Below the pieces are notes generated by a model. The model was given only the letters and a program-made list of their open reading frames with translations, was not told the origin of the DNA and made no database searches. A program made the translations under genes and the position numbers. Shown piece by piece: positions 15,199 to 63,442 of a stretch of DNA of 64,000 bases. Within the stretch, counting starts at the first letter, position 1; each line of letters opens with the position of its first letter. The DNA lies in assembly GCF_009660225.1 (NCBI RefSeq), contig NZ_CP045920.1:496001-560000 (forward strand), read 5' to 3'. The stretch is from Pseudactinotalea sp. HY158. GTDB taxonomy: Bacteria > Actinomycetota > Actinomycetes > Actinomycetales > Beutenbergiaceae.

Positions 15199-15390
15199 GC
15201 GGCCTCAGGCGGGGACGACCTCGCTGTTCCGTCAGGGGACTTTCGCACTGTAGCCTCGGTGCCCACGCCTGCCGCCGAGCCGTGGTCACCGACCGTGGCG
15301 TCATGGCTCGACCAATACCCCCACGAGTCGGCGACATCGAGGCTAGCCTGAAGCGGCATGGGCAGTAGATCTGCTACCTATCAACGATGA

Positions 15391-15397
15391 GAGGAAG
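15391..15397 (+). promoter_or_regulatory. Ribosome binding site upstream of the small secreted peptide gene
   Basis: GAGGAAG lies 7 nt before an ATG at 15405. That ATG starts a frame that stops at 15482 but sits one base out of phase with the signal-peptide-encoding frame that follows, which points to a frameshift inside the first 20 codons. Confidence 0.5.
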
Positions 15398-15481
15398 TAT
15401 CGCCATGTACGACACCCTCGGTGACAGGGCCGGAGCCACCCTCCTCAGCGGCTGCGTGCGGTCCTGGCAGCCGTCGTCCTG

Positions 15482-15796
15482 ATGCTGACGCTGGGCGTTA
15501 CTCTGAATGCTCCGAGCGCAGCGGCCTTCGGTACCTGGAATGCTACGCGAAGTTGTGGCGTCAACGAGGTCCACAGTGGACGGGTCGGCGGAGTGTCTCA
15601 GGCGACGACGCGCCGCGTGAGTGGATCGTGTGCGGGGCCACTCATGGCCGGTCTGCGTCACCGCTCTGGTCTTGGGTTGCCGACAAGTATCCAGTGGAGC
15701 ACGGGCGACTCGAGCTACGTCTCTCGTATCATGACCGACACAACGACGTCCGGGTACCACAAGGGCTGCCCCACGTGCAATACCACGACGACGTGA
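15482..15796 (+). CDS. Small secreted Cys-containing peptide, 5' end apparently frameshifted
   Basis: Not recognised with confidence. From the first in-frame ATG it is 104 residues, but the same frame is open upstream to 15425 and reads QRLRAVLAAVVLMLTLGV, a good signal-peptide start with no ATG, GTG or TTG before it. A start with a good ribosome site at 15405 is in the neighbouring frame; loss of one base near the C-rich run at 15434-15446 would explain this. Predicted cleavage follows APSAAA, giving a mature peptide of about 89 residues beginning FGTWN with four Cys. The stop overlaps the next gene by 4 bp (GTGA), strong support that the frame is real. FGTWN loosely recalls lactococcin-972-type bacteriocins, but their SNY/H core is missing. 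Confidence 0.5.
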   Translation: MLTLGVTLNAPSAAAFGTWNATRSCGVNEVHSGRVGGVSQATTRRVSGSCAGPLMAGLRHRSGLGLPTSIQWSTGDSSYVSRIMTDTTTSGYHKGCPTCNTTTT

Positions 15797-16383
15797 AGCG
15801 ATGCGCGTGTGTCGGCCTGGCCATTGCCGCGATCGGGCTGCTCCTCGGCTGCTCCTCCGTTCAAGGGGGACAAGTGGCCGAGGAGCGCTTCGACGCGCTC
15901 CTCGCTGAGGCCGAAGCGAGCGGTGCGGGTGAGGCGCAGTTGGCGGCGATGAGCGATGGTGCCGTCACGACAGCCGAGTACGAGGATGCTCTCGACCGCT
16001 ACTTTCAGTGCACGGCTCTTCATGGAATTGAGCACAGCGATCCTGTTCTCAATCCGGTCAATAATCTCATTTACACGTTCACTGAGACGTCATGGGTCTA
16101 CGGGGATGAAGAATTAGCTGAACTGACGTTGGATTGCAGAGTTCGGGAACTCGTGTACCTGGAGTTGGGGTATCGGTACAGCGAGCCGGCATCGATGGAT
16201 GAGGCGCTGCTCGATGGTGCGCGAGAGTGCCTGCAAAAGTCCGGGTGGGAGTTCACGGGCGATGAGCGGAATTTCGATGATCTGGTCGCAGTTGGAGGCG
16301 AAGGCTCCCAGGACGGGGTTACGGACTGCCTGGTTCCCGTCTGGCTCAAGTTCTATCCAGGGGAGTCGCTCTCCGTTCCGTGA
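15793..16383 (+). CDS. Lipoprotein linked to secreted peptide/ABC exporter island
   Basis: A 196-residue lipoprotein. GTG start inside a 4-bp overlap with the upstream peptide gene; signal sequence VKRCACVGLAIAAIGLLLGC with lipobox LLLGC. The mature part is acidic and helical at first (EERFDALLAEAEASGAGE) with Cys in FQCTALHG, LDCRVREL, ARECLQ and TDCLVP. No known domain is recognised. Base composition is clearly lower in GC than the flanking genes (some lines near 50%), a sign of transfer. Position between the secreted peptide and an export-type ABC system makes an immunity or export-accessory role conceivable; this is inference only. Confidence 0.7.
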   Translation: MKRCACVGLAIAAIGLLLGCSSVQGGQVAEERFDALLAEAEASGAGEAQLAAMSDGAVTTAEYEDALDRYFQCTALHGIEHSDPVLNPVNNLIYTFTETSWVYGDEELAELTLDCRVRELVYLELGYRYSEPASMDEALLDGARECLQKSGWEFTGDERNFDDLVAVGGEGSQDGVTDCLVPVWLKFYPGESLSVP

Positions 16384-16535
16384 GTCGGGGCAAGTCCGTG
16401 TGCGACAACAGTTCGAAGCTACCGGCACCCGGTCGCGCGGGCCCAGCCGGACAGTTGACGGCCCATCCATGTGGTGCCATCGGCCGGTATGGTCAGGGGA
16501 TATTGACGGCCTGACGGCGGGAGGTTGACCAGTCG

Positions 16536-17621
16536 ATGGAGAAGTCGGATTCTCGAGTCGGTCGGACCGTCTTTCTGGCTGCCTTGGTGGTGTGGCTGCT
16601 GGCCCCGGTCGTGTTGATCGCGGTGGTGCAGGCACATCAACAACGGGTGGTGCTTGTACAGACACCGGAGGTGTTGGCGCCGGTGACGGCGAGCGTTGAG
16701 TCCGCCGGCGCGGTCGAGATCGCGATCGACTGGGGCAGGCAGGTGCGCCTGATCGCTCCCGGCTGGTCCGGGACGGTGGAGCAGGTACACGTCGAGCCCG
16801 GCGACCGGATCGAGGATGGGTCGCCTGTGATCACGATCGATGGAATCGAGCGGCGGGCGGCATTGACTCCGCGTCCGTTCACCCGTCCGCTGTCGATCGG
16901 CGATCGTGGCGCGGATGTCCGGATGCTGCATGAATGGCTGGCCGAGTCCGGGTACCCGGGTGCTGAGGGAGAGGTGTTCACTGCCGGGACGATGGAGCGT
17001 GTCCGGGCGCTGGCCGCCGACATCGGTGCGAAGCGGCCGGCGGCCTTCGACTGGACGTGGTTGGTCTATCTGCCGGAGGAGTTCACTGTCGGGTCGGTGG
17101 AGGCGCTGGTCGCTGCGCCGGCGCCCGCTGCTGGTGAGGCGGTCGTGCTCGGTGCCGCTGCAATCAAGGACACCCTGATCGTGGAGCCGGGCAGCGTGCC
17201 TGAGCGTCAGGCGGGCGAGGAGAATGTGGCGCAGACCGCCTTTGAACAGATCCCGGCCGATGCGGTGGTCACGGTGCCTGTGGGGGCCGAACTGCGCGTG
17301 CGGGACGAGCCGGTCGTGGTCGGCGAGGACGGTCGGCGACTCGAGAATCCGGATGTGCTGGAGCGGGTCCCCTCGGGCGCGGCGTCGGTGCCCGCTGTTT
17401 TGGTATACAGAGATGACGAGGCACTCATGCTGCCCTCGGCGGCGGTCTGGGTCGGCGCAGGGGCCGACACATGCGTGTTGCGGGTCGAAGGTGACGAGCG
17501 GGTGACGGTCTCGGTTACTGTCGCTTCGGGAGCCAATGGGCAGGCACTGGTGACGGGAGATCTGAGCGTTGGAGATCGGGTGGTGCTGGCGCCGCCTGCC
17601 GCAGCGAGGGGGTCCTGTTGA
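16536..17621 (+). CDS. Membrane-anchored efflux adaptor with peptidoglycan-binding domain
   Basis: A 361-residue protein with one N-terminal membrane segment (VFLAALVVWLLAPVVLIAVV), then a biotinyl-lipoyl-like hairpin region (APGWSGTVEQVHVEPGDRIEDGSPV), a PG_binding_1-like segment at about 118-170 (LSIGDRGADVRMLHEWLAESGYPG), and a MacA/HlyD-like C-terminal beta region ending VTGDLSVGDRVVL. This is the domain order of periplasmic-adaptor-like proteins paired with MacB-type ABC transporters in Gram-positive bacteria. Its stop overlaps the TTG start of the ATPase gene, so the adaptor, ATPase and permease form one translational unit. Confidence 0.82.
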   Translation: MEKSDSRVGRTVFLAALVVWLLAPVVLIAVVQAHQQRVVLVQTPEVLAPVTASVESAGAVEIAIDWGRQVRLIAPGWSGTVEQVHVEPGDRIEDGSPVITIDGIERRAALTPRPFTRPLSIGDRGADVRMLHEWLAESGYPGAEGEVFTAGTMERVRALAADIGAKRPAAFDWTWLVYLPEEFTVGSVEALVAAPAPAAGEAVVLGAAAIKDTLIVEPGSVPERQAGEENVAQTAFEQIPADAVVTVPVGAELRVRDEPVVVGEDGRRLENPDVLERVPSGAASVPAVLVYRDDEALMLPSAAVWVGAGADTCVLRVEGDERVTVSVTVASGANGQALVTGDLSVGDRVVLAPPAAARGSC

Positions 17622-18232
17622 GCAGTGCGCTGGTGCGGCTGAGGCAGGTGACCAAGTCCTTCGGTAGCCGTCAGGTGCTGACCGGCCTCGATCTGGAGAT
17701 CCGGCCGGCCCACTCGGTCGCCTTGCTGGGGCCTTCCGGGGCAGGCAAGTCGACGCTGCTATCGATCATCGCCGGTCTCTTGGCTCCTGATGGTGGCTCG
17801 ATCGAGAGAGCGCCCGGGGTGGAGACGGTCTGGATCGTTCAGAATGCACCGATGTTGAACCGGCGCTCGGCGTTGGAGAACATCATGGTCGGCGCCTTGT
17901 CCTTGGGCGCGGCGGAGGGGGTGGCGCGGTCCAAGGCGAGGGAGGCAATGCAGCGGCTCGGCCTGTCCGACCTGGCTCGCACGCGTGGGCACCGACTCTC
18001 CGGCGGTGAACGGCAGCGGGTGGCGGTCGCGCGTGGCCTGCTCGCCGGGGCGAATCTCTTGCTGGTGGATGAACCGACGGCCTCGCTCGACGCCGACTCC
18101 AGAGAACTGGTGCTGCGGGCTATCCATGGGGCCGTGGCGGCCTCGTGTGCCGCTGTAGTGGCTACACACGATGACGAGGTGGCCCGCTCCTGCGATGAAC
18201 AGATCCGGCTCAGGGATGGACGAGTGACGTGA
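17618..18232 (+). CDS. ABC transporter ATP-binding protein (MacB/LolD type)
   Basis: A 204-residue ATPase with Walker A GPSGAGKSTLL (about residues 38-48), signature LSGGERQRVAVAR and Walker B LLLVDEPTASLD. The size and sequence fit the stand-alone ATPases of the LolD/MacB/FtsE group that power extrusion of peptides or lipoproteins rather than import. The start is an unusual TTG overlapping the previous stop (TTGA); a GTG at 17633 is an alternative. The stop overlaps the permease start (GTGA). Confidence 0.92.
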   Translation: MSSALVRLRQVTKSFGSRQVLTGLDLEIRPAHSVALLGPSGAGKSTLLSIIAGLLAPDGGSIERAPGVETVWIVQNAPMLNRRSALENIMVGALSLGAAEGVARSKAREAMQRLGLSDLARTRGHRLSGGERQRVAVARGLLAGANLLLVDEPTASLDADSRELVLRAIHGAVAASCAAVVATHDDEVARSCDEQIRLRDGRVT

Positions 18233-19317
18233 GCCGTGACGGCGCCCGCGGCGCACGGTGGCGTACTCGCCAGGTCGTCCGCGAGGCCGTGTGGGACCTG
18301 TGCGCGGCACGAGTCCAGAGCGGCATCGTGGCTACGACCGCCTTGGTGACCGCAGCGGTCATGGTCTTCGTCGCCGCTCTCACTCTGGCCGGCATCGCCG
18401 CACGTGAGGATGTCGCCTACTGGAACGGCCGGGACGTGCTGGAGGTGGTGTTCAATGAGGGGCGTTGGGATGTGGCTCGGTGCGAGCAGTTGAACGCGGT
18501 GACCGGAGTCGCCTCGGCCGGGGCGGTGCTGGATGGTCGAAACATCATGATCGGCACCGAACCGGCGAGTCGGTATTCGATCGAACGAGTGACGCCTGGA
18601 TACCTGCACGTCGTGTTCCCGGACCTGGAGTTTCACGGGGAACCAGGCCTAGTCGCCGGGCCCCTCGTGGCCGAGCGCTTCGGGCTCGTCCGTGGCGGTG
18701 ATATCGCCGTACGCGAGGCCACTGGCCTTCCTCGGGTGCTCCCGGTCAGCGCCGTGGCTCATCCGTCGGCGCGTGCCGACGGGCAGGCACGCCGTCTGTT
18801 CGAGGTGATGCCTGCTACCGGGGTGGCCGCCGGCTGCCTGGTGTCCCCCGAACACGGGGCTACGGCACAAGTGCAGGCATTGCTCACGGATTGGTGGCCC
18901 GCACCGGCACGGGCCATCACGTTCCCAGTCGAGGACACCGGCTCTGGCCGAACCCCGCAGCAAGAGCTCGGCTCCTCCTGGGCACACCTCGGTTGGCTTG
19001 CCACAGTGCCCGTGCTCGCGATCTTCCTGGTGCTCGCGTGGTCGAGGCGTTCTGAGATCGCCCTCTATCGGTTGCACCGGCTCACCCGCGCCCAGGCTCT
19101 CCTCATGCACGCCGTCACGGTCCTGTTCGTAGTGTTGCTGCCGTGGCAGGCAGGCACCGCGGTGGGGCTTGCGGCCTTCATCCTGGCGGACGGGGGCACT
19201 CTGCTCACCCCCGTATTGATACCTGTGCTGGCGCAGTCGCTCATCATGTTGGCCCTCGGCCCGCCATTGGCCTGGCTGCTCACCGCTCGCACCCTGGCCG
19301 CGATCCGCGGCGCCTGA
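18229..19317 (+). CDS. ABC transporter permease, FtsX/MacB-like
   Basis: A 362-residue membrane protein with the MacB/FtsX topology: one helix near residues 34-60 (GIVATTALVTAAVMVFVAAL), a large extracytoplasmic domain (about 60-250), then three helices (about 252-272, 288-312 and 318-350) near the C-terminus. GTG start within the overlap with the ATPase gene. Together with the adaptor and ATPase it would form a tripartite-like mechanotransmission exporter. The neighbouring secreted peptide and lipoprotein are the obvious candidate cargo or protection partners, but nothing in the sequence proves this. Confidence 0.85.
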   Translation: MSRDGARGARWRTRQVVREAVWDLCAARVQSGIVATTALVTAAVMVFVAALTLAGIAAREDVAYWNGRDVLEVVFNEGRWDVARCEQLNAVTGVASAGAVLDGRNIMIGTEPASRYSIERVTPGYLHVVFPDLEFHGEPGLVAGPLVAERFGLVRGGDIAVREATGLPRVLPVSAVAHPSARADGQARRLFEVMPATGVAAGCLVSPEHGATAQVQALLTDWWPAPARAITFPVEDTGSGRTPQQELGSSWAHLGWLATVPVLAIFLVLAWSRRSEIALYRLHRLTRAQALLMHAVTVLFVVLLPWQAGTAVGLAAFILADGGTLLTPVLIPVLAQSLIMLALGPPLAWLLTARTLAAIRGA

Positions 19318-19394
19318 GGATACGATCGGCGATCGGCCCACCCTCTCCGGGGCGCGGTGTGCCGGAAGAATTCTAGGGCCGGGCGAGACGTCCT

Positions 19395-20267
19395 CTAAGC
19401 CGGGGCGACCTCGCTGCGGCGCCCGATGCGCCGACGCAGCCAGGCCGGGATCCGCTCGAGCGGAAGGAACGCCGCCCAGCACACGACCGTGGGCAGGAAG
19501 TGGATCCCCAGCGCGAGGTACGTGGCCAGGTGGAACAGCACGAACGTGGCCACGAGCGCGTAGAGCCACTTGCCCCGCAGGAACAGCACGACCGGGGAAC
19601 AGAACTCGAGGAGGAGCAGCGCCCACTGCCCCACGATGAGCAGCCACGGGAAGTCGAGGGTCCAGCGGATGAGGTCCGATCCGCGGCGCATGATCGCCCA
19701 GACGAACACGGCCCCGTTCGCCCACACCCACGGTGTGCCCGAGCGGGTCCACTTGCTGATCGCCGATCCGAAGTAGGTGAGGATCGTGAACACCTGCACG
19801 ACGCGCAGCACCCAGCCGACGCGCTCGCTCGAGCCGGTGTCGCCGAAGCGGGCCACCCCGACCGTGGGCAGCACGAGCACCGCGACCATGAGCGCCATGT
19901 GATCGTGGCTCACGTAGGAGAAGCCCTGCGAGTTGAGCATCCAGAGCCAGAACCCCAGGCCGGCGACCCAGCCGGCGGCGCGCTGGAAGGCGCCGATCGC
20001 CGCGCAGACCGAGGCGAGTGTCACGACCCAGAAGAGCACCTGACCGCCCGTGACGCCGAGCGTCGGCAGCTGCAGGATCCGGGCCACGAGCGTGGGCTGG
20101 TACAGCTCCGGAACGTAGCCGTGCGGCACGACGTCCGTCGCGACGTAGAGCATGTCGAAGATGAGGAAGAGGTAGACGAGGGTGCGCAGCACAGCCACCC
20201 GTGCGAGCGGCATCGGCTTGAACCACCAGCCGCTCACGGCCGAGCCGGCTCGGGCGAGGGCGCTCAT
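19395..20267 (-). CDS. HTTM domain membrane protein
   Basis: About 290 residues with multiple membrane helices and the HTTM (horizontally transferred transmembrane; vitamin-K gamma-carboxylase-like) pattern: LARVAVLRTLVYLFLIFDM, the segment LNSQGFSYVSHDHMAL, then TYFGSAISKW. In actinobacteria HTTM proteins are commonly encoded next to a small membrane protein, as here. Biochemical function unknown; the carboxylase active-site region is not evident. The ATG at 20267 overlaps the partner stop by 4 bp and is preferred over the one at 20279. Confidence 0.85.
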   Translation of the reverse strand: MSALARAGSAVSGWWFKPMPLARVAVLRTLVYLFLIFDMLYVATDVVPHGYVPELYQPTLVARILQLPTLGVTGGQVLFWVVTLASVCAAIGAFQRAAGWVAGLGFWLWMLNSQGFSYVSHDHMALMVAVLVLPTVGVARFGDTGSSERVGWVLRVVQVFTILTYFGSAISKWTRSGTPWVWANGAVFVWAIMRRGSDLIRWTLDFPWLLIVGQWALLLLEFCSPVVLFLRGKWLYALVATFVLFHLATYLALGIHFLPTVVCWAAFLPLERIPAWLRRRIGRRSEVAPA

Positions 20268-22903: not shown

Positions 22904-23635
22904 GTGCCAACACGGGTCTGTGACAGCGCCGGAGGGAGTCGTCCGACAGTGACAGTCGACAAGGACGTGCGGTCGCGGACGACCGGGGAGGCCGACGCCG
23001 TCGAGCAGCCGATTCCACACAAGGTCTACCGTGCCGTGCGGGAATCGATTATTCGGGGAGAGTACCCTCCGCATCTTCGGCTGAGCGAGGAGAATCTGGC
23101 GAAAGAACTTGGAGTCTCCCGGGTGCCTCTGCGCGAGGGCTTTCGAATGTTGTCACGAGACGGGTTTATCCATCAGCGCCCACACCGCAGCGCGGTGGTG
23201 AGGGAATGGACCCCGGACCAGGTGTCGGAGCTCTACGACGTAAGATTGGTCTTCGAGGTCAAGGCGGCAGGGTTGGCGGCCCAACGGGTGGCCGGCGGGG
23301 GAGACCCGCGGCCACTGTGGGAGACGCTCGACTCGATTCGTGACGGGCAGGCTCCGCTCGATCCGCTCACGGCGGCCGAGCTGAGTACTCGGTTCCACCG
23401 AACGATGGTGGAGTTGACGGAGAACCCGCTCCTCATATCGATCGTCGAACCACTGTTCCCGCAGATGGTCTGGCACTCCTATCTCACCCGCAACCACCAA
23501 CCGGGCGTTTCGCACCGAGAGCACGCAACTATCGCAGAGGCCATTACCGCGGGAGACCCGGCGTTGGCGGAGGCCACCACCTATGTTCACATCAGGCGCG
23601 GACGAGAGATGAGCCTGAAGGCGGCCGAGCACTGA
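22904..23635 (+). CDS. GntR family transcriptional regulator (FCD subfamily)
   Basis: A 243-residue regulator: winged HTH at about 37-105 (IIRGEYPPHLRLSEENLAKELGVSRVPLREGFRML) and an FCD ligand-binding domain (about 110-235) with metal-binding-type residues FHRTMVELTENP and HREHATIAEAI. GTG start with GAGG 5 nt upstream; GTG at 22949 would be shorter. It is transcribed toward the PuuE-like/ABC importer cluster and probably regulates it in response to an organic acid or ureide-type metabolite (inference). Lower GC than the groEL side. Confidence 0.9.
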   Translation: MPTRVCDSAGGSRPTVTVDKDVRSRTTGEADAVEQPIPHKVYRAVRESIIRGEYPPHLRLSEENLAKELGVSRVPLREGFRMLSRDGFIHQRPHRSAVVREWTPDQVSELYDVRLVFEVKAAGLAAQRVAGGGDPRPLWETLDSIRDGQAPLDPLTAAELSTRFHRTMVELTENPLLISIVEPLFPQMVWHSYLTRNHQPGVSHREHATIAEAITAGDPALAEATTYVHIRRGREMSLKAAEH

Positions 23636-23837
23636 GACGCCGGCCGTCGACGCGCCTGCGTTCCAGGCGGCCTGCGGTTGCGGTTGGGCGAGCAGCACGG
23701 TTCGCGGATTTCCGGTAGCCGGACTGTCCCAGCGTGGCGTGCGCCAGGCGCATCATTGCACCAACGCGGGGGCGCGCAGCCACCCTGCTCCGCACTCCTA
23801 CGGACGGGCGTCCGACGTCTCGCGTCGATTTTGGGGC

Positions 23838-23880
23838 TTGACAGGCCTTCGTCGCCAGTGCACGCTGTGTTATACAAACT
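23838..23880 (+). promoter_or_regulatory. Candidate promoter/operator before the importer cluster
   Basis: The 307-bp gap between the regulator and the deacetylase gene holds a perfect TTGACA at 23838-23843. An AT-rich TGTTATACA (inverted TGT/ACA arms, 3-nt spacer) at about 23868-23876 could be a GntR-type operator. No well-spaced -10 hexamer is clear. The rest of the gap shows nothing recognisable. Confidence 0.35.
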
Positions 23881-23928
23881 TCACCCAATGAGGGGTTTTG
23901 AGTGACCTCAAGGGCGATCTAGTAGCAC

Positions 23929-23934
23929 AGGAGG
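23929..23934 (+). promoter_or_regulatory. Ribosome binding site that selects a TTG start
   Basis: AGGAGG lies 8 nt before a TTG at 23943 in the PuuE-like frame. The earlier TTG at 23898 has no such site, so the downstream TTG is the better start. Confidence 0.65.
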
Positions 23935-23942
23935 TAGGTCCC

Positions 23943-24896
23943 TTGGATCTGGACTGGACATCGAACGCGGGCGAGCGAATGCGCGACTTCCGCGGCTATG
24001 GTCCGAACCCGCCCGAGTTCCGGTGGCCCGACGGGGCTCGCCTGGCGATCAACTTCGCGGTGAATTTCGAGGAGGGAACCGAGCGAAATCCCCTCGTCGG
24101 GGATGCTCACCGTGACTCGCGAGGCTGGCTCAAGAGTTCGTTGCCGCCGGGTGAAAGAGACCTAATGCAGGAGTCCGAGTACGAGTACGGTACGCGTACG
24201 GGAATCTGGCGGCTCGTGCGCATGTTCGAGAAGTACGAGGTGCCCTTCAGTGTCTTCGTCTCATCTCAGGCGCTCCCGGTGAGCCCGGAGCTGACCGACT
24301 ACCTCGCACAGGCAGATTGCGACTTCGTCTCCCACGGCGTGCGCTCGATCTCCGCACCGCGCGCCTCGGAAGCGGAGCAGCGTAGGAGCATCCGAGACTC
24401 CGTTGACGAGGTCTACCGGCTCACGGGCAAGAGGATCCTCGGGGCCTTCCCGCGGCCCCCGATCCGTGAGGAGGCGCGGCGCATCATGGCTGAGGAAGGC
24501 CTCCTCTACGACTCGGCCACCACCAACGACGATGTGCCCTACTATGCCGACGTGGCCGGCCGCCCGATGCTCGTGGTTCCCTACGCCATCGATACGAATG
24601 ATGCGCGCTTCTGGGGTGGGCAGACCGGCCCGGGCTTCACGGGTAGCTCCGACTTCTTCGACTATCTTCGTTCCGCGTTCGACATCTTGTATGACGAAGC
24701 GGATACGAGTGCGCGAATGATGTCCGTCGGCTTGCACGCGCGAATTATGCGCCCGGGTCGTGTCGCGTCCCTGCGACGCTTCCTGGAATACGTTCGGCAA
24801 TTCCCCGAAGTTGCCATCATGAAGCGAAACGACATCGCGACTTCCTTCGCTGAGAAGTTCGCACCCGAGAACGCCTGGAACTGGCCTTCACATTGA
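23943..24896 (+). CDS. Polysaccharide deacetylase family protein, PuuE (allantoinase)-like
   Basis: About 317 residues. The N-terminal region MRDFRGYGPNPPEFRWPDGARLA is the signature of the PuuE-like branch of the carbohydrate esterase 4 fold (known members hydrolyse allantoin or related cyclic ureides, others N-acetyl groups). NFAVNFEEGTERN and FVSHGVRS match that branch; the canonical deacetylase metal triad is replaced, as is usual for it. No signal peptide, so cytoplasmic. TTG start chosen by the upstream AGGAGG. It leads an operon with an ABC importer, suggesting it acts on the imported compound. True substrate unknown. Confidence 0.8.
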   Translation: MDLDWTSNAGERMRDFRGYGPNPPEFRWPDGARLAINFAVNFEEGTERNPLVGDAHRDSRGWLKSSLPPGERDLMQESEYEYGTRTGIWRLVRMFEKYEVPFSVFVSSQALPVSPELTDYLAQADCDFVSHGVRSISAPRASEAEQRRSIRDSVDEVYRLTGKRILGAFPRPPIREEARRIMAEEGLLYDSATTNDDVPYYADVAGRPMLVVPYAIDTNDARFWGGQTGPGFTGSSDFFDYLRSAFDILYDEADTSARMMSVGLHARIMRPGRVASLRRFLEYVRQFPEVAIMKRNDIATSFAEKFAPENAWNWPSH

Positions 24897-24924
24897 CGTG
24901 AATGCCTCATCACAAGGAGAAACC

Positions 24925-26196
24925 ATGACAAGGAAGTCAAAATTCAAGCAAAACGTGCTCGTCGGCACGATCATACTGTCGGCAACGGCTCTTGCGGCCT
25001 GCGGTAGTAGCGGCGGCGACAGTACGAACGCCGACGGGAAGCTCGAGCTCGTCGTTGCGAACTCGCAGTGGCTCGATGCGCTCCGCGGAGAGAACCTCTG
25101 GGGCGCAGTCAAGGCGTACGACGACGCACAGTCCGAGGTCGTCCTGGTTCAGCAGGCGATCCCGTCCGAGAGTATCGATACGAAGATTGCGACAGAACTC
25201 GGTGCGGGCCAAGGGCCGGATATCATGATCATTCAGGACAAGCTGTTCATGACGGTGAGGGATGCTCTCCTGCCTATCGACGACGTCGTCGCCGAGGCAG
25301 AGAACCTCAACGAGACGAACGACGCAGCAATCGTCGACGGCGAGTATCGCGGTGTGGCCTGGCAACGCGCTGCTTATGCCTTGATCTACAACGAACTCCT
25401 GCTCGAGGAGGCTGGGGTCGAGCCGCCGACGAACGTCGACGAACTGATCGAGGCTGGCCAGGCGGTTCAGGAGGCGACCGGCACGATCGGATTCGCCAGC
25501 CGCCACAGCGTCAACGAGATCACCAACTGGTACTTCGACTTCCAGAACTGGCTGCAAGGCTATGGCGGCGGGATCGCCCCAGACGGGACATTCGCTATCG
25601 ACTCGCCCGAGAACGTCGCGGCCGTCGAGGCCTTCAAGCAGGTCTACGACGCGGACATCATCCCCAAGGGCGACGACTTCCCGACGCAGCGCACGCGGAT
25701 GAAGGAGGGTGGTATAGCGATGTCGATCGACAACAGCGGTGGCACGCTCAACATTGCTTCGGGCGCATCTGAGGACTTGCTGCGGATCGGCGCGGCCCCG
25801 CTCCCGTTCGACCATCCGGGCGCGCACCAGCAGTTGTTCGTCGCGATCAATAAGAACATCTCCCCCGAGAAGCAGGAGGCGGCGAAAGACTTCATCCGCT
25901 GGTTCATTGGCCCCGAGGCCCAGGACCTGATGCGATCGGTCAGCGGACCGGACCGATTGGCGACCGACGTGCCCATTCCCGACGACGTTCTGACGGAGAG
26001 CCCCTGGATGGCTGCGTTCGAGCAGGCGGCTGTCGCCTCGAACAGCACGCTGGTCTCCGGGCATGAGGGTGACACGGCCCAGGTCGCGCGAATCGTTATG
26101 GAGGCTGTTGAACAGGTACTGACCGGCGATGCGGATGCGGCCACGGTGCTCGCGGATGCGCAGCAGCAGACCGAGGCTGCGTTCGCGGACGACTGA
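24925..26196 (+). CDS. ABC transporter extracellular solute-binding protein (family 1)
   Basis: A 423-residue lipoprotein that would capture the substrate outside the membrane. Signal MTRKSKFKQNVLVGTIILSA with lipobox LAACG; mature domain with family-1 features (VVANSQWLDALRGENL, GPDIMIIQDKLF, FIRWFIGPEAQDLM). The ATG preceded by AAGGAG is preferred over one nine codons upstream. Family 1 usually binds sugars or oligosaccharides, but members also bind polyols and other solutes. It directly precedes two permeases and an ATPase. Confidence 0.92.
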   Translation: MTRKSKFKQNVLVGTIILSATALAACGSSGGDSTNADGKLELVVANSQWLDALRGENLWGAVKAYDDAQSEVVLVQQAIPSESIDTKIATELGAGQGPDIMIIQDKLFMTVRDALLPIDDVVAEAENLNETNDAAIVDGEYRGVAWQRAAYALIYNELLLEEAGVEPPTNVDELIEAGQAVQEATGTIGFASRHSVNEITNWYFDFQNWLQGYGGGIAPDGTFAIDSPENVAAVEAFKQVYDADIIPKGDDFPTQRTRMKEGGIAMSIDNSGGTLNIASGASEDLLRIGAAPLPFDHPGAHQQLFVAINKNISPEKQEAAKDFIRWFIGPEAQDLMRSVSGPDRLATDVPIPDDVLTESPWMAAFEQAAVASNSTLVSGHEGDTAQVARIVMEAVEQVLTGDADAATVLADAQQQTEAAFADD

Positions 26197-26248
26197 GCGA
26201 CCTCGAGATGCACTACGACGCAGATGTCGAAAGGAGGTTGAAGCCCTC

Positions 26249-27157
26249 ATGATCACGCACAAGCGCAGGTTCAGCAGTAGGTTCCGCACGCAGGCGATGC
26301 CCTACCTTCTCCTGCTCGTGCCGGTGCTCTACCTGAGCGTCGTCCTGTTCTGGCCTCTTGGTAAGGAGGTCTGGATGAGCTTCACGGACACGAGGCTCAT
26401 GTCGCCGAACGACGGCAACTTCATCGGGCTGGAGAACTACCGCGCCCTGCTGACGTCGGGGGAGTTGCCCTATTCGATCTGGGTGACGTTGGCCTACACG
26501 GCCGCCACGGTCGTCTGCTCGACCGCGCTGGGTGTCTGTGCCGCCCTGCTCCTCAATCGGCCCTTCGTGGGGCAGACACTTTCCCGGTCGGTCCTGCTCT
26601 TCGGGTACGCGGTTCCGAGCGTGGCGGCGGTACTGGGCTGGTACTGGATCTACAACGAACGCTCGGGAATCCTGAACAGGGTTTCCGAGGCGCTCGGGTT
26701 CGGTCCTCAAGCGTGGCTCACCTCGTCGGAGTGGGCCCTGATCTCGATCACCGTCGTCACCGTTTGGCAGGTGACGCCGCTCGTGATGCTGGTCGTGCTC
26801 GCGGCCTTGCAATCGGTGCCGGAGGAGGTGCGGGAGGCGAGTCGGATCGACGGTGCGGACCCACTCAACGTGTTCCGCAACGTCACCTTCCCGCATATCA
26901 GACCGTCGGTGGAACTCGTTGCCCTCCTAGTTATGGTGTGGACGATTCGACGATTTGAACTCGTGTACCTGTTGACTGGCGGCGGTCCGAATAACCGCAC
27001 CAGCACGATCGTCGTCAGCTTGCAGCAGATGGCGTTCGAAAACCAGTCGCTCGGCAAGGCGGCCGTATTCGGCGTGATAGGTCTCGTGCTTGCTCTTTTG
27101 CTCGCCGGTGTGGGCGTCGTGCTACGTCGCATTCTTGGAGGGAACAGACATGCGTGA
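26249..27157 (+). CDS. ABC transporter permease (MalF-like, CUT1)
   Basis: 302 residues, six predicted helices, starting MITHKRRF after a very strong AAGGAGG. The EAA loop EASRIDGADPLNVFRNVTFP (about residues 190-210) contacts the ATPase. The open frame begins further upstream but the ribosome site fixes this ATG. Its end overlaps the next permease by 8 bp, indicating coupled expression. Forms the heterodimeric channel with the next gene product. Confidence 0.93.
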   Translation: MITHKRRFSSRFRTQAMPYLLLLVPVLYLSVVLFWPLGKEVWMSFTDTRLMSPNDGNFIGLENYRALLTSGELPYSIWVTLAYTAATVVCSTALGVCAALLLNRPFVGQTLSRSVLLFGYAVPSVAAVLGWYWIYNERSGILNRVSEALGFGPQAWLTSSEWALISITVVTVWQVTPLVMLVVLAALQSVPEEVREASRIDGADPLNVFRNVTFPHIRPSVELVALLVMVWTIRRFELVYLLTGGGPNNRTSTIVVSLQQMAFENQSLGKAAVFGVIGLVLALLLAGVGVVLRRILGGNRHA

Positions 27158-27986
27158 GAGGTCGAAATCGCTGCGCCGCATCATCTTCTACGTTGTCGTC
27201 GCGGCGTTCGTGATCATCGCCGGCTTTCCGGTCTATTGGATGCTCACCACGGCATTCGGGGCGCAGTCGGACCTATATTCTGGAAACCAGACGCCGTACC
27301 CGCAGCTCGGAAACATCGGATTGCTACTTGAGAGCCTGGCGGACCTGCCATTGGCGCGCTGGATGTCGAACTCGTTCCTGATCGCCGGCGGCACAACGAT
27401 CGTGAGTCTGTGCCTGGGTACGCTCGCCGGGTACGCACTCAGCCGGTTCCGTTTCGTGGGCCGCGGTCTCGTGAGCGGGGCGATGCTCGTCACGCAGGTA
27501 TTGCCGGAAGCGCTCATCCTCATTCCCCTCTATGGAATCTTCGTCACGCTTGGGTTGCTCAACAGTCTCTGGGGTCTGGTCATCGCCAACGCGGGCTTTG
27601 CTCTGCCTGTGGCGGCGTTCATCATCATGAGCGCGGTCGACGGTGTCCCTGTCGAGCTGGAGGAGGCCGCCCGGATCGACAACTGTCCGCGATTGAGTAT
27701 CCTCACCTCGATCATCGTTCCGGTCATCAGCCCGAGCATCGCAGCAGCGGCCGTCATCACATTCTTCTCTGCGTGGAACGAGTACCTGCTCGCGGCGACC
27801 TTCCTGCTCGACCAGGAGCGCTGGCCGGCGAGTGTTGGACTGGCGTCGTTCATCGGGCAGTACGAGACGCCGCTCGCCGGTGTGATGGGCGCGGCACTGC
27901 TGTTCTGTATTCCAGCGATCGTCTTCTTCCTAATTGTTCAACGACGAATTGTCGCCGGGTTGACCACCGGCGCCGTGAAGGGATAA
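27150..27986 (+). CDS. ABC transporter permease (MalG-like, CUT1)
   Basis: 278 residues, six predicted helices, starting MRERSKSLRR inside the previous gene (TTGGAGG upstream). The EAA motif LEEAARIDNCPRLSILTSIIVP is present (about 168-190). Second half of the importer channel. Followed after 4 bp by the ATPase gene. Confidence 0.93.
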   Translation: MRERSKSLRRIIFYVVVAAFVIIAGFPVYWMLTTAFGAQSDLYSGNQTPYPQLGNIGLLLESLADLPLARWMSNSFLIAGGTTIVSLCLGTLAGYALSRFRFVGRGLVSGAMLVTQVLPEALILIPLYGIFVTLGLLNSLWGLVIANAGFALPVAAFIIMSAVDGVPVELEEAARIDNCPRLSILTSIIVPVISPSIAAAAVITFFSAWNEYLLAATFLLDQERWPASVGLASFIGQYETPLAGVMGAALLFCIPAIVFFLIVQRRIVAGLTTGAVKG

Positions 27987-27990
27987 TTTC

Positions 27991-29166
27991 ATGGCTTCCA
28001 TAGCATTTCGTGATGTCGCCAAGTCGTATGGCAGCACGCAGATCATCGACGAGTTCAGCGCAACGGTCGAGGACGGTGAGTTCCTCATCCTGCTCGGTCC
28101 CTCCGGCTGCGGCAAGTCCACCCTGCTTCGTATGATCGCCGGTCTGACGGAAATCTCGAGCGGAGAGGTGTTGTTCGGCGAGAACCGGGTCAACGACCTC
28201 GAGCCGGGTGAGCGCGGCGTCGCATTCGTGTTCCAGAGCTATGCTCTATACCCGCACATGAGCGTGATGGAGAACATCGCGTTCCCGCTTCTTATGGCCA
28301 ACTTCCGCAAGGTGTATCACGTGCCCATTCTCAATGGCATCATACGCCGGCGAATGATGCGCCGACCGGATATAGCAGCCAAGGTCGATGAGATCGGCCG
28401 CACGCTCGAGCTCACTCCGCTCATGAAGCGCAAGCCCGCCCAACTCTCCGGCGGGCAACGCCAGCGAGTTGCGCTTGCACGTGCGCTGGTGCGTGAGCCC
28501 GCGATCTATCTGCTCGATGAGCCACTGTCGAACCTCGACGCGAAGCTCCGCGGCCAGATGCGGACCGAGATCGCCGCGCTTCACCGACGCGTCCGTAAGA
28601 CCTTCGTGTACGTCACTCATGATCAGGTCGAGGCGATGACGATGGGCACCCGCCTCATCGTGATGAATGATGGGGCCATCCAGCAGATCGGCAGCCCCGA
28701 GGACGTCTACAGCGACCCTGCAAACGTCTTCACGGCGCGCTTTGTGGGCTCGCCGCCGATGAACCTCACTCCCGTCGACGTCGCCGGGGACCGCGGTACG
28801 GGCTTCGAGGACGTGTTCCCCGGTGGCCCGGGCCTTCCAGCGGGGTCGTATTACCTGGGTGTCCGTCCCGAGAACGTGCGCCTCGTACCTGCGGACCGCC
28901 CGGGAATCGGCGCCCAGATCTCGACAGTCGAGCGCCTCGGCAACGAGACCCTCGTCGGCTGCGTACTTGAGACGAGCAGCGGCGAGGGAATCACGGATGA
29001 CGTCCAGAACATCGACCAGTGGTATGTCCGTCTGCCTGGCAGTCAGCACTTCGAGATCGGGGAACGCCGTTGCCTGGATTTCGACGCCGGGGCAGCCCAT
29101 TGGTTCGACCGCGCGACGGGCGAGCGCGTGCCGCGTATTCGTCAGGCCTGCGTGGCCGGCCGGTAA
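27991..29166 (+). CDS. ABC transporter ATP-binding protein (MsmK/UgpC type)
   Basis: 391 residues. Walker A GPSGCGKSTLLRM, signature LSGGQRQRVALAR, Walker B IYLLDEPLSNLD, His-loop VYVTHDQ, and a C-terminal TOBE/MalK-like regulatory region from about 240. A short insertion between Q-loop and signature (RKVYHVPILNGIIRRRMMRRP, about residues 107-128) is longer than in standard MsmK proteins. AGGGA lies 8 nt before the ATG. Energises the two permeases; such ATPases may serve several importers. Confidence 0.93.
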   Translation: MASIAFRDVAKSYGSTQIIDEFSATVEDGEFLILLGPSGCGKSTLLRMIAGLTEISSGEVLFGENRVNDLEPGERGVAFVFQSYALYPHMSVMENIAFPLLMANFRKVYHVPILNGIIRRRMMRRPDIAAKVDEIGRTLELTPLMKRKPAQLSGGQRQRVALARALVREPAIYLLDEPLSNLDAKLRGQMRTEIAALHRRVRKTFVYVTHDQVEAMTMGTRLIVMNDGAIQQIGSPEDVYSDPANVFTARFVGSPPMNLTPVDVAGDRGTGFEDVFPGGPGLPAGSYYLGVRPENVRLVPADRPGIGAQISTVERLGNETLVGCVLETSSGEGITDDVQNIDQWYVRLPGSQHFEIGERRCLDFDAGAAHWFDRATGERVPRIRQACVAGR

Positions 29167-29192
29167 AGAGCAAGAACGATCGGAGAGAGAGC

Positions 29193-30104
29193 ATGCAGAC
29201 ATATCGAGTGAGCGCCACGGGGCACAGCCTCAACTACCTGCCCGAGTACATCGGCTCAGCGCTTGGATACTTTGCCGATGAGGGAATCCTCATCGAGAGC
29301 ACGGTTCCTTCGCCCTGGGACCGGGTCCTGGACGACCTCGAGTCCGGCACGGCCCACGCCGCCCTGGGAGGGATCTGGGTGCCCTCGATGTACCGGGGCC
29401 ACGGCCGGGAGCTGGCACCCTTCGCCCAGGCGTCCGCGCGCGCGCCGCTGGCGTTGATCGGGCGTGAGCAGGCGACCGACTTCTCGTGGGAGCGGGTCGC
29501 CGGACGACACTTCCTGGCCCCCGGGGGCAACGGTGCCAGCGTCGCCCTCTACCTGGAGATGGTGCTGGAGGAGAAGGGCCTCGATCGGTGGGACATCCGG
29601 ATGACCCAGAACCTGTCCGGCTCCATGCTCATCGACCTGTTCGTCGGTGGCATGGGTGACTACCTGATCGTCGACGAGTTGAGCGCACGCCATCTCCAGG
29701 CCACTCACGCCGACCTATGGGTGGTCGAGTCCTTCGGCCGTGACGGTGGGCGGATTCCGTGGAGCATCTACTACGGAGCCGAGTCCCGACGTGAGGAGCT
29801 GCAGCCGCTCCACCGGGCGTTCGCGAGCGGACTGGAACGGAGCCGTGTCTGGCTGAATCAGGCGCCGATCGAGGAGATTCGGCGCATCGTCGGCCTCGAG
29901 TTCGCCGGGCGTGATCCGGAGATCCTCGTGGGACTCGTCGACGACTTTCGCCAGTGGAACATGTGGGATTCGATCACGATCGACCGGCCGGGTTTCGATC
30001 GTTGGCAGGCTGGGCTCGTCACGGGCGGGCTGCTTCCAAAGGCGGTCGACTACGGCACCCTCGTGGACCGCTCACTCACCGAGGAGGGAGCTGTGCGACC
30101 TTGA
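29193..30104 (+). CDS. NMT1/THI5-like periplasmic-binding-fold protein lacking a signal peptide
   Basis: 303 residues beginning MQTYRVSATGHSLNYLPEYIG, the NMT1/THI5/SsuA-type start (LGYFADEGI, then LESGTAHAALGG). The usual secreted members have a signal peptide or lipobox; here the domain begins at residue 3 with no export signal, so it should be cytoplasmic. GGAGAGAG precedes the ATG, and no better upstream start exists. It could be an enzyme-like or sensor protein acting on the imported compound, or an SBP relying on an unusual route. It sits between the ABC ATPase and an MFS transporter in the same operon. Confidence 0.75.
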   Translation: MQTYRVSATGHSLNYLPEYIGSALGYFADEGILIESTVPSPWDRVLDDLESGTAHAALGGIWVPSMYRGHGRELAPFAQASARAPLALIGREQATDFSWERVAGRHFLAPGGNGASVALYLEMVLEEKGLDRWDIRMTQNLSGSMLIDLFVGGMGDYLIVDELSARHLQATHADLWVVESFGRDGGRIPWSIYYGAESRREELQPLHRAFASGLERSRVWLNQAPIEEIRRIVGLEFAGRDPEILVGLVDDFRQWNMWDSITIDRPGFDRWQAGLVTGGLLPKAVDYGTLVDRSLTEEGAVRP

Positions 30105-30138
30105 TCTACGGCGGCATCGCGGACGGCGCGGCGAGTAG

Positions 30139-31377
30139 GTGGTCAGCCTGACGAGACGCGCCACCGTGGCGATCGACCGTGCGGAGCGCCCGCTGTTCGG
30201 AGCGGTGCTTCTAGGCGCGTTCTTTGGCGTGATCGGCCAGAACACCGTGGGCATGATCGGCCCGTTCCTGTCCGCCGAGTTCAGCATCGACGCGACGATC
30301 CTCGGCACCCTCAACGCATTCACATTCGCCTCGATGGCCCTCGGAAGCATCATTCTGGGGTGGGTTGCAGGCAGGGCCGGGCTGCGGCAGTCTCTGCGGT
30401 GGGGCGTCGGCTTCATCGTGGTGGGGAGCCTCATCGGCGCGGCCGGCGACGGGATGACAGCGTTCGCCCTGAGTCGTATCGTGACCGGTATCGGCCTGGG
30501 TGGCCTGAGCACCAACAGCGTGGCCACCCTCACTGCCCTCGTGTCGGCCACGGCGCGGGGCTCCGCGGTGTCGCTGCTCAACGTCGCCGCCGGTGGTCTC
30601 GGGAACGTCGCGGCGTTCCTGTTCGGCCTCGGGATCGTCGGCGTCTTCGCCGCTCCCGAGCAGGCAGGCGGCCACGGTTGGCGCGTCATCCTGATCGCGA
30701 TCGCCGTACTCGGCGTCATCGTCTGGCTGACCTATCGGGCCATTCCCGATGTGACGAAGGGGGCCGCTCCGGCAGGCGCGCCAGCGCAGGCTTCGGCGGA
30801 CTCCGGTGCGCTCCGCCCGCCGCTCGTGCGCGCCGCTGCCTCGTACTTCGTTACGGCCGGTTGCACGCTCACAGTGCTCACCTTCCTGCCGACACTGCTG
30901 GCATCATCGGGGGGAGTGTCCTCCAGTGAGTCGTTGCTGCTCGCAGCGATCGTCCAGGTTGGCGGCCTGGTGGGTGCCTGTTTCAGCCTGCTCTTCGCGG
31001 CCAACGGCGGCGTCAAGCGCTACGTCATCGGCGCCGGTACGCTGTGTGTAGGTGTGTGTCTGGCCATCGTGCTCCAAGGCCACCACATCGCCGTGCTGAT
31101 GACTAGCGCCCTGCTGTTCCAGCTTGCCGGTGTGTTTGCGGTAACGCTCTACTGGCGCTGGTTCCCGATGCTGTTCTCGAGTAGTGAGCGCCCGCGGGGA
31201 ATGGGCATCATCATCGGCTCGGGATCGCTGGGCGCCGTTGGATTGACGTGGGCGGGAGGAGTGCTGCTCGACCGTGGCGGACCGGCCCTGCTGTTCGGTG
31301 GCATAGGTTGCGCCTATCTGATCCTTCTTGTCTGTGTGTCGTTCGTCCCCGAGCGACCGAGCTTCGATCGGCATTAG
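30139..31377 (+). CDS. MFS transporter
   Basis: 412 residues, 12 predicted membrane helices in two halves joined by a cytoplasmic loop (TKGAAPAGAPAQASADSG). The motif GWVAGRAGLRQSLRWG between helices 2 and 3 is the MFS signature, and VTGIGLGGLSTNSVATLTAL fits the aromatic-acid/metabolite:H+ symporter branch. GTG start. Last gene of the cluster; may import a related substrate or export a product. GC is lower than in the flanking mog/moa region. Confidence 0.88.
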   Translation: MVSLTRRATVAIDRAERPLFGAVLLGAFFGVIGQNTVGMIGPFLSAEFSIDATILGTLNAFTFASMALGSIILGWVAGRAGLRQSLRWGVGFIVVGSLIGAAGDGMTAFALSRIVTGIGLGGLSTNSVATLTALVSATARGSAVSLLNVAAGGLGNVAAFLFGLGIVGVFAAPEQAGGHGWRVILIAIAVLGVIVWLTYRAIPDVTKGAAPAGAPAQASADSGALRPPLVRAAASYFVTAGCTLTVLTFLPTLLASSGGVSSSESLLLAAIVQVGGLVGACFSLLFAANGGVKRYVIGAGTLCVGVCLAIVLQGHHIAVLMTSALLFQLAGVFAVTLYWRWFPMLFSSSERPRGMGIIIGSGSLGAVGLTWAGGVLLDRGGPALLFGGIGCAYLILLVCVSFVPERPSFDRH

Positions 31378-60542: not shown

Positions 60543-63008
60543 TCAGGTGGAGATCCGAACCCGGTTGGATTGCTCGATCGCGTCCGCGCGGCTGCTGACG
60601 CCGAGTTTTCGATAGATGGTCCGCACATGGGTCTTGACCGTGTTGGGTGAGAGCCCGAGGGACTGAGCGATGCCGACCGGACCGAGATGCTCGAGCAGCG
60701 CATGGAAGACCTGTGCCTCGCGCGGCGTGAGCGTGACGATCCGCGGCCCGGATCCGTCGTCGGGCCGGTAGAGGTCCGGGCGCAGCCCCTGCAGCGACGG
60801 ATCGTTGCCGGCGAGCGACATGAACCGGCCCGGCGGCATCGAACCGAACGGAGCGGTGCGTCCGTGGATCAGCGCGAGGTCCGCGGCGGCCCGCAGCTCC
60901 GCGTGGGCGGCCGGCAGCCGGCCGGCGCCGTCGTGGGCGCGGGCCGCGAGCAGGTGGGCCTCGAGCACGTAGCGACCGAGCGGGCTCTGGTCGCGCAGGA
61001 CGTGCTCGGCGTCCTCGAGCGCCTTGCCGAACCGCCGCTCGGCGAGATGGATGCGCCCGAGCGCGATCCGCAGATCGCGTCGGGGCTCGACGAACTCCAG
61101 GACCTCCCGGGCGGAGGACGGCATCTCGCAGGCGAGGAGCAGGTCGACCAGGACGATGGCCAGGTACGTCTCGGCCATCGATCCGCGCCGGGTGACGTCG
61201 AGCGCCGCGCGCGCATTCGTGGCGTGCGTGAGCATCGCGGGCTCATCCCCGTGTTGCAGGATCGCCTGGGCGCGGATGAAGACGCACAGTGACGACAGGT
61301 CGTTGCGACGGGGGTCGTCGGCCAGGGCGAGTGCGGCCGGGACCGCGCCCGCGTCGTCGGTGTCGACCAGCACGAGGGCGCGCGCCGCCTCGAGGGCGAG
61401 TAGGAGCGCGTCCTGGTGGTCCTCGCCGTCGAGCGTCTGCCGCCAGGCGGGCAGCCCCGGGTCGGCGAGCCACGGCGCGGCCAACGCCGGCTCACCGCGC
61501 AGTGCATGTGCCAGGGCGGCGCCGACGGCCGCGAGCGCGGATCCGCCGTCCTTGCGTGCGGTCGCCCACGTATGGGCCTGGGCGAACGCATAAGCGGAGG
61601 TGACCAGGTCCCCCGTGGCGAGCAGGGCGACCCCCCACTGCAGGAGCGCGAGCAGCTCGTCGTCGCGGACGTTCGAGCCTCGGCCGGCGATCACGGAGGC
61701 GTTGAGCCGGGCCGAGAGCCCGCCCGGTTCGTAGGGATGCAGACGGCGTCTGCGCTCGCCCGTCGGCTCGAGGTGGTCCCGCGCCATGCGCAATCGGGCG
61801 TCGATGGACACCTTCGCCGCGGGCAGCACCCGGCTCGCCGCGCCCAGCACGTCGGGAGCCTCGAGGAGCAGACGGTCCCAGCAGGCCTCGATCACCTCGA
61901 GCGCCGCCGGCCAATCGCGCGACTGGGTCGCGTAGAAGAGGGCGGTGGCGGGGTCGTCGCCGCGGACCGCCTGCTGCATGAGCGTGCGGTAGGCCCGCGG
62001 CTCCAGCTCGGCGGAGGTTTGCCGCATGACCCCGAGGAGGGTTCGCCTGACGGCGGGTGCGTAGGCGTAGACGGAACCGGACGGTGCGGGCGTCGCGCCC
62101 AGCAGTCCGCTCGCGGTGAGCTCGCTGATCATGGCCCAGGCGTCCTCCTCGGAACCGAGGGCGCGGGCCGTCTGCAGGTCGAATTCGGACGGAACGGCGG
62201 TCGAGAGGGCGAAATCCCGGAGGGCGGGGGAGGCCAGCTCGTGGAAGGCCGCCGCGATGTACTGGCCGGCGAACGACTCCGGCGGAGTCGATGGATCGTC
62301 GGTGAGGATCGCCTGGTGGATCGCCGCCCGGACGAGCGCGGGCCAGCCGCCGAGCTCACCGGTCAGCCGCTCCGCCCCCCGCCGGTCGAGCGTCAACCCG
62401 ATCGAGCGCGCGAGCTCCGCGGTCATGGTCGCCGTCATTCGAAGATCGTCCGCGCCGACGATGAACGCGTCGACGGACAGCGGCCCGAGCGAGTCGAGGG
62501 CCCGCGGCCGGCGCCCGGCCACCATGATGAACACCTGAGGGTTCTGGCGCAGGAGGTCGACGAGCACGGCATCGATCTCGTTCGCCCCGGCCTGCGATCC
62601 CGCCTCGTGGTAGTCGTCCAGGACGATGAGGGTCGGATCCGCCAGACCCGCCACCATCCGGATCGCCCGTTCCTGGGTCGCCGCGGACGTCGGCGCGGTT
62701 CGGCCGCCCACCTCGGGGGCCCGGCCCTCGAGGCAATCGAGGAACTCCTGCCAGAACCCCGCACGGTCGTTGGCGGCCGTGGTCAGGCGGGCGAAACGTA
62801 TGTCCACTCGGCCGCGCTGCGCCCGCAGCCACGTGACCGCCAGCGCGGTCTTGCCGTACCCCCGGGGTGCCTGGAGGATCCGCAGCGGGAACGCGGTGGC
62901 GTCGCCCAACCGGTCGAGGAGGGCCGTGGCCGAGGCGTCGTGGTCGGCGATCCGGGGCAACGTGAACTGCCGGGACTGTTCCGGGTCGGACATTCCTGAG
63001 ACACCCAT
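60543..63008 (-). CDS. Large LuxR-type ATPase regulator (MalT/LAL-like), tandem paralogue
   Basis: 821 residues with the same layout: Walker A QAPRGYGKTALAV, Walker B LIVLDDYHEA, helical repeats, and LuxR HTH at the C-terminus (LTPREAQVFHALLEHLGPVGIAQSLGLS, TVKTHVRTIYRKLGVSSRADAI). It precedes the other regulator by 42 bp on the same strand, so they are probably a duplication and may be co-transcribed. The GTG/ATG region offers a second ATG five codons in. Confidence 0.88.
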   Translation of the reverse strand: MGVSGMSDPEQSRQFTLPRIADHDASATALLDRLGDATAFPLRILQAPRGYGKTALAVTWLRAQRGRVDIRFARLTTAANDRAGFWQEFLDCLEGRAPEVGGRTAPTSAATQERAIRMVAGLADPTLIVLDDYHEAGSQAGANEIDAVLVDLLRQNPQVFIMVAGRRPRALDSLGPLSVDAFIVGADDLRMTATMTAELARSIGLTLDRRGAERLTGELGGWPALVRAAIHQAILTDDPSTPPESFAGQYIAAAFHELASPALRDFALSTAVPSEFDLQTARALGSEEDAWAMISELTASGLLGATPAPSGSVYAYAPAVRRTLLGVMRQTSAELEPRAYRTLMQQAVRGDDPATALFYATQSRDWPAALEVIEACWDRLLLEAPDVLGAASRVLPAAKVSIDARLRMARDHLEPTGERRRRLHPYEPGGLSARLNASVIAGRGSNVRDDELLALLQWGVALLATGDLVTSAYAFAQAHTWATARKDGGSALAAVGAALAHALRGEPALAAPWLADPGLPAWRQTLDGEDHQDALLLALEAARALVLVDTDDAGAVPAALALADDPRRNDLSSLCVFIRAQAILQHGDEPAMLTHATNARAALDVTRRGSMAETYLAIVLVDLLLACEMPSSAREVLEFVEPRRDLRIALGRIHLAERRFGKALEDAEHVLRDQSPLGRYVLEAHLLAARAHDGAGRLPAAHAELRAAADLALIHGRTAPFGSMPPGRFMSLAGNDPSLQGLRPDLYRPDDGSGPRIVTLTPREAQVFHALLEHLGPVGIAQSLGLSPNTVKTHVRTIYRKLGVSSRADAIEQSNRVRIST

Positions 63009-63442
63009 GGTGCGAACCTGCTACTGCGGTGGGCGGAGATACAAAGGGATGACTCGCGCGGACGACGGGCCCATCCCGGGTCACCCGCGTGAGCCGTAAG
63101 TCTATCCAGCAGGGGTGTCGATGTCGACGGAAGTGCCGGATTGTAAGTGCCTCGGGAGGCGTCGACTTCGACCGGGGCGACCCGCGTCCGGCTGCGTGAT
63201 CGGGCCGCCCTGGATGGTGGGGGTGAGCGGCGGGTGCGCGACGTCTCACCCTCGACCGGTCCGACGATCGTGCCGCGCCCCGGGCGGGCTCACCCGCGGT
63301 TCACCTCCGCGGGCCCTGCTCAAACGTCGTCCCCGGGAGTTGAGTTGAGGCTACGCGCTAGACGAAGGTCCGCATATCGGGACGAACGTCGCTGCGCGTG
63401 GTGGATCTTCGTCGGCGTAGTGGAGTGGAAGGCAGTCGGACG
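63009..63442. other. 434-bp gap without a recognised gene
   Basis: Divergent intergenic region between the LuxR-type gene and the membrane protein at the right edge. Moderately lower GC near 63330-63430. No repeats, RNA gene or convincing promoter pair was recognised. Confidence 0.5.

Follow-up and report, generated by a model that had tools for sequence, protein, structure and literature searches.

Related systems

Lipid II is bound by lactococcin 972, whose gene cluster contains putative immunity genes, orf2-orf3 (PMC4055356). In this system, mediterrocin included, a small, unmodified, Sec-secreted peptide (PF09683/TIGR01653) is encoded beside an FtsX/MacB-like membrane part and an ATPase (TIGR03608); the membrane part of the classical operon is one large 7-8-TM protein (TIGR01654, described as 7-TM), and neither a lipoprotein nor an adaptor is present. 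As mediterrocin shows, members of the family are of Sec type and can share the predicted fold at 18% identity (PMC12345188). An adaptor, a separate ATPase, and a MacB-like permease make up YknXYZ, which protects Bacillus from the disulfide-bonded SDP toxin; its adaptor binds peptidoglycan, the toxin is made elsewhere, and the description holds no cognate lipoprotein (PMC5985334). AS-48EFGH is a MacB-type transporter linked to a bacteriocin, in this case a circular one (PMC5985334). MacB-type machines can act on substrates outside the membrane, and MacB-type systems also move non-toxic substrates (PMC5985334). In nisin immunity, a peptide-binding lipoprotein (NisI) is combined with an ABC transporter (NisFEG) for joint immunity (PMC8538875).

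The locus studied here lies in a 64,000-nucleotide stretch of the Pseudactinotalea sp. HY158 genome (the window). By description it can be likened to YknXYZ, sharing the three-part transporter with a peptidoglycan-binding adaptor and the tie, here a putative one, to protection from a secreted disulfide-bonded peptide, and to AS-48EFGH, sharing the tie of a MacB-type transporter to a bacteriocin, here likewise putative; it is set apart from YknXYZ by a lipoprotein and a peptide frame of its own. With NisI and NisFEG it shares the pairing of a lipoprotein with an ABC transporter; the nisin peptide, however, is lanthionine-modified and its system lacks an adaptor, whereas the window lipoprotein has no database or PDB match. 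Unlike lantibiotic LanI/LanFEG loci, the window insert has no modification genes beside the precursor. Lactococcin 972 has a similar plan, with a small Sec-type peptide gene adjoining those for the ATPase and the FtsX/MacB-like membrane part, and two relatives of the window cassette carry true PF09683 peptides. In the window, the signal peptide sequence stands in a frame without an in-frame start codon, the peptide does not match PF09683, and the permease is a 362-aa protein with four transmembrane (TM) segments. An earlier description of the cassette was not found in the papers searched, which is not proof that none exists.

Organization and insertion of the cassette

The cassette consists of five reading frames on the plus strand, in the order peptide frame (15425-15796, stop to stop), lipoprotein (15793-16383), adaptor (16536-17621), ABC ATPase (17618-18232), and permease (18229-19317). 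The preliminary description listed five genes in this order, linked by 4-bp overlaps within a lower-GC block. The last four are open frames, but the peptide gene is not intact as sequenced. Overlaps of 4 bp were found at three of the four junctions (peptide/lipoprotein GTGA, adaptor/ATPase TTGA, ATPase/permease GTGA), whereas the lipoprotein and adaptor are separated by a 152-bp gap. The lower GC content was confirmed (66.3% in the block versus 73.7% in the 10 kb on its left side). No sigma-70-like promoter was found inside the cassette, no Rfam match near it, and no tRNA within the 64-kb window. The arrangement is more than chance, because the order recurs in unrelated genera and three times in the Pseudactinotalea sp. 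HY158 genome.

The left neighbor of the cassette encodes a FAD oxidoreductase, and the right neighbor is one that we take to be an HTTM-like gene. These two genes are convergent in four genomes of the same family, where only 3-29 bp lie between them, compared with 4196 bp in the window; the cassette is an insertion between them. Nothing but the five genes is present in the 4.2-kb insert, so that genes for lantibiotic modification are absent, and the block is horizontally acquired. A search of 23 further genomes of the family found no relative of the permease. An imperfect direct repeat of about 28 bp was detected, with the left copy at the edge of the insert (15200-15226), where it is similar to the end of the HTTM-like gene, and the right copy (19389-19416) covering the 3' end of that gene. 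As a boundary of the insert the repeat is suggestive only, because equally good alignments were given by 31 of about 5000 segment pairs drawn at random from the window. The copy at 15200-15226 has the look of a 3' gene end left behind from the right-hand gene, as would result from integration at a gene end.

Transporter genes

The ATPase and adaptor were identified as previously proposed. The ATPase matches PF00005 at 3.6e-28, and its profile matches are of the LolD/MacB/L_ocin_972_ABC kind. The adaptor has one N-terminal TM segment, lipoyl/MFP parts, and a peptidoglycan-binding domain; its profile matches solved peptidoglycan-binding domains and the MFP domains of SilB/CusB. An ATPase and an MFP-type adaptor thus stand together in one operon, as expected of a MacB-type system. 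The assignment of the permease to the FtsX/MacB type agrees with its topology, one N-terminal (29-47) and three C-terminal (250-268, 285-303, 312-330) TM segments, the first and second of which are separated by a large outer domain, but it was not backed by profile searches: the window protein matched neither FtsX nor MacB_PCD in Pfam at E 10, the permease of a relative reached only E 7.2 to FtsX, and no match to TIGR01654 was found.

Distribution of the cassette

In permease and adaptor searches, the order lipoprotein-adaptor-ATPase-permease was recovered both in an order-level sample, where the permease was matched in 15 of 396 genomes, and in Bifidobacteriaceae MAGs, Rathayibacter sp. VKM Ac-2754, a Microbacterium MAG, and a Propionibacteriaceae MAG. 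Three cassettes lie in the Pseudactinotalea sp. HY158 genome, at about 0.18, 0.51, and 1.43 Mb. The second (L076; G000:C1:1428000-1437000, minus strand) encodes an apparently intact peptide if a GTG start is assumed, and the third (L184) lies at G000:C1:175000-185000, also on the minus strand. A scan of genome contigs with the adaptor alone found nothing, and plasmids gave no match. The peptide leader of L184 is likewise out of frame, beside a run of G.

It had been suggested that the same gene order with diverged peptides would speak for a toxin/immunity system. The order does recur, and among nine cassettes mean pairwise identity was lower for the peptide (26%) than for the ATPase (46%); the adaptor and the permease (32% each), however, are nearly as diverged, and the lipoprotein stands at 31%. 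Wide occurrence of the ABC genes without a peptide or lipoprotein had been named as evidence to the contrary. Generic adaptor-ATPase exporters of that kind are common in the class, but they lack the matching permease type; in cassettes with a matching permease, the lipoprotein is nearly always present and the peptide is present in most but not all. Genome G042 has two similar cassettes (L042 and L044), only one of them with an upstream peptide.

Lipoprotein and the upstream peptide slot

The lipoprotein gene (GTG start) encodes a candidate immunity protein. It has a lipobox (LLGC) and four Cys that are invariant in 13 family members, in line with the Cys-rich lipoprotein originally described. 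The structure model is mostly helical (mean pLDDT 86.6). A fold search found no PDB counterpart, and sequence searches found no family or database match and no similarity to a known immunity protein. When 347 genomes of the order were searched with the lipoprotein profile (lipobox and the four invariant Cys), 62 had a match. Two or three lipoproteins of the cassette type occur in tandem at L038/L054, L039, and G272:C2:377852-379971, some without an intervening peptide.

A small ORF with a Sec-like signal was found directly before the lipoprotein at 17 of 43 loci, one of the 17 being that of the window (L153), compared with 1/43 antisense (Fisher p = 1.2e-5), 0/35 far upstream (p = 6.7e-6), and 4/36 downstream (p = 0.004). 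The loci were picked without regard to peptides, and related loci were removed only when the ends of the lipoproteins were identical. Over half of the lipoprotein loci have no recognized peptide, and the true fraction of peptide-bearing loci is uncertain because signals were detected by a simple ad hoc rule. The peptides filling the slot in relatives are small, diverse, and Sec-signaled, and in many of them two Cys about 15-25 residues apart are followed by a V-x-V/I-R-like strand. In Rathayibacter the peptide-lipoprotein pair occurs twice in tandem ahead of a single transporter; the two peptides share 75% identity and the two lipoproteins 70%. At L056 the coding stretch of the peptide is only partly left, and the lipoprotein and transporter genes are still open.

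These counts bear on whether the peptide and lipoprotein might be fortuitous open frames of GC-rich DNA that happen to adjoin an ordinary drug exporter. At such GC content long open frames occur often, and the commonness of generic adaptor-ATPase operons without either gene would fit. The lipoprotein, however, is a recognizable family with four invariant Cys that heads the cassette in distant genomes, and it is preceded by Sec-type peptides at a much higher rate than are the control positions; we regard this explanation as largely refuted and very improbable.

Link to lactococcin 972

Searches of 297 genomes of the order gave 15 matches to PF09683, two of which head a cassette of the present type. 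One is the L087 peptide (35.9 bits, cut-off 22); the other is at L121 (G009), in a genome of the same family as Pseudactinotalea sp. HY158. By a rough estimate, the probability of two or more such adjacencies arising by chance is about 5e-7. Several other PF09683 loci carry the classical protein of about 680 aa with 7-8 TM segments and an ATPase. The transporters of L087 and L121 belong to a different branch from that of the window, and the link to lactococcin 972 is therefore to the cassette type, not to the nearest kin of the window cassette. PF09683 had no match in the whole Pseudactinotalea sp. HY158 genome.

The window peptide

The small secreted peptide with four Cys that was originally described can be read from the sequence, without an in-frame start. 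The frame opens at 15425, after a stop at 15422, and would encode a Sec-like signal peptide (RLRAVLAAVVLMLTLGVTLNAPSAAA, about 15449-15523) and a mature part of about 90 aa with four Cys (15524-15793). It contains no ATG, GTG, or TTG until 15482, a position that falls within the signal peptide. Upstream, a ribosome site (GAGGAAG) and an ATG at 15405 belong to a short plus-strand frame (15387-15482) that is out of frame with the peptide and stops at 15482. Since the signal-peptide frame lacks a start and a good ribosome site and ATG stand in another frame, the window copy is probably broken or mis-sequenced.

As had been stated earlier, the peptide matches no named family; PF09683 and TIGR01653 gave nothing even at E 10. 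Its structure model is poor (pLDDT 55), so the list of fold matches carries no weight. An HMM built from the first five or six peptides of relatives did not find the window peptide significantly, and pairwise shuffle comparisons with the peptides of relatives were mostly non-significant. Against a profile of 21 peptides, built without it, the window peptide scored 7.8 bits, and 12 of 2000 shuffles scored as well; this support is modest because the members of the profile were selected by the two-Cys pattern. Among the six-frame ORFs of the window it ranked fourth with that profile (E 0.48). The window peptide fits the peptide family only modestly. The ORF at 62614-63099, which also scored, was dropped as a non-secreted Arg-rich frame. 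A search for homologues in 39 relatives gave only noise, and the candidates at L007 and L008 were inspected and rejected.

Proposed function

The cassette probably belongs to a type of bacteriocin/self-immunity unit that is widespread in the order, in which a Sec-secreted peptide toxin would be joined with immunity by the lipoprotein and removal by the pump. This proposal follows from the Sec signals, the action of MacB-type machines outside the membrane, and the parallels with YknXYZ and NisI/NisFEG. Our best reading is that the cassette may work like NisI with NisFEG or like YknXYZ against SDP, with fast-diverging peptides. The peptide would leave the cell by Sec and mature to a small disulfide-bearing domain; given the Sec-type signals of the peptides, the ABC part is probably not required for export. 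Outside the cell it would attack rival bacteria, and its target may be the cell-wall machinery, as with lactococcin 972. We infer that the lipoprotein, on the outer face of the producer membrane, binds the cognate peptide or shields against it, and that the adaptor, ATPase, and permease form a peptidoglycan-tethered MacB-type machine that drives the peptide from the membrane/cell-wall zone.

The earlier suggestion of a bacteriocin with self-protection is thus the best-supported reading of the cassette, although not of an intact peptide gene in the window. Computed support comes from the gene order conserved in several families, the Sec-like signal peptides in the slot (17/43), the lactococcin 972 peptides at L087 and L121, the insertion site, the tandem in Rathayibacter, the decay at L056, and the greater divergence of the peptide relative to the ATPase; NisI with NisFEG, YknXYZ, and orf2-orf3 of lactococcin 972 provide the parallels. 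Points against it are the window peptide without an intact start, a family match, a good model, or (mostly) significant pairwise similarity, the absence of a peptide by rule from more than half of the lipoprotein loci, and a lipoprotein unlike known immunity proteins.

Several of these points would also suit a module for peptide resistance or immunity only. The window frame would then be defunct or no gene at all, and the lipoprotein and pump would guard against the peptides of neighbors. The missing start, the cassettes without a recognizable peptide, and the extra tandem lipoproteins without peptides are consistent with such a module; the significant association of peptides with the lipoprotein and the apparently intact peptide of L076 argue against it, and as an account of the cassette we consider it unlikely. 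For the window copy alone it comes close to the best explanation: because the start of the peptide is disrupted, this copy is most likely a remnant that now provides immunity only, if the disruption does not stem from an error in sequencing. Somewhat less likely again is a peptide that serves as a secreted signal, adhesin, or envelope protein, placed or sensed by the lipoprotein and the MacB-like machine. MacB-type systems do move non-toxic substrates as well (PMC5985334), the toxicity of the peptide is so far inferred, and its model is poor; lactococcin 972 members, however, occupy the same slot, and the high divergence, the scattered distribution, and the insertion by transfer speak against such a role.

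Implications

Bacteriocin-immunity sets of like working are known; new here would be a peptide outside PF09683 and a lipoprotein-plus-adaptor layout unlike the lactococcin 972 operon. To judge from the relatives, this may be an actinobacterial variant, not yet described, of the pairing of a bacteriocin with self-immunity. The chances seem to us even that Actinomycetes possess a large class of bacteriocins, so far undescribed, that are unmodified, Sec-secreted, and disulfide-bearing, the peptides fast-diverging and each provided with its own lipoprotein immunity protein and a peptidoglycan-tethered MacB-type pump, with the lactococcin 972 homologues as one branch of the peptides that use the pump. 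If the bacteriocin/self-immunity reading is right, the lipoprotein family, present in about one in six of the genomes sampled from the order, would be a marker for unannotated bacteriocins that could be mined, and the cassette would lend itself to testing how self-protection is shared between a lipoprotein and a MacB-type pump bound to peptidoglycan. The window copy is one acquired, probably damaged example of the cassette.

A second lower-GC stretch of the window follows groEL (22904-31377). By eye it contains a GntR-like regulator, a deacetylase-like gene, an ABC importer set, and an MFS-like transporter, and it resembles an ordinary catabolic or uptake block.
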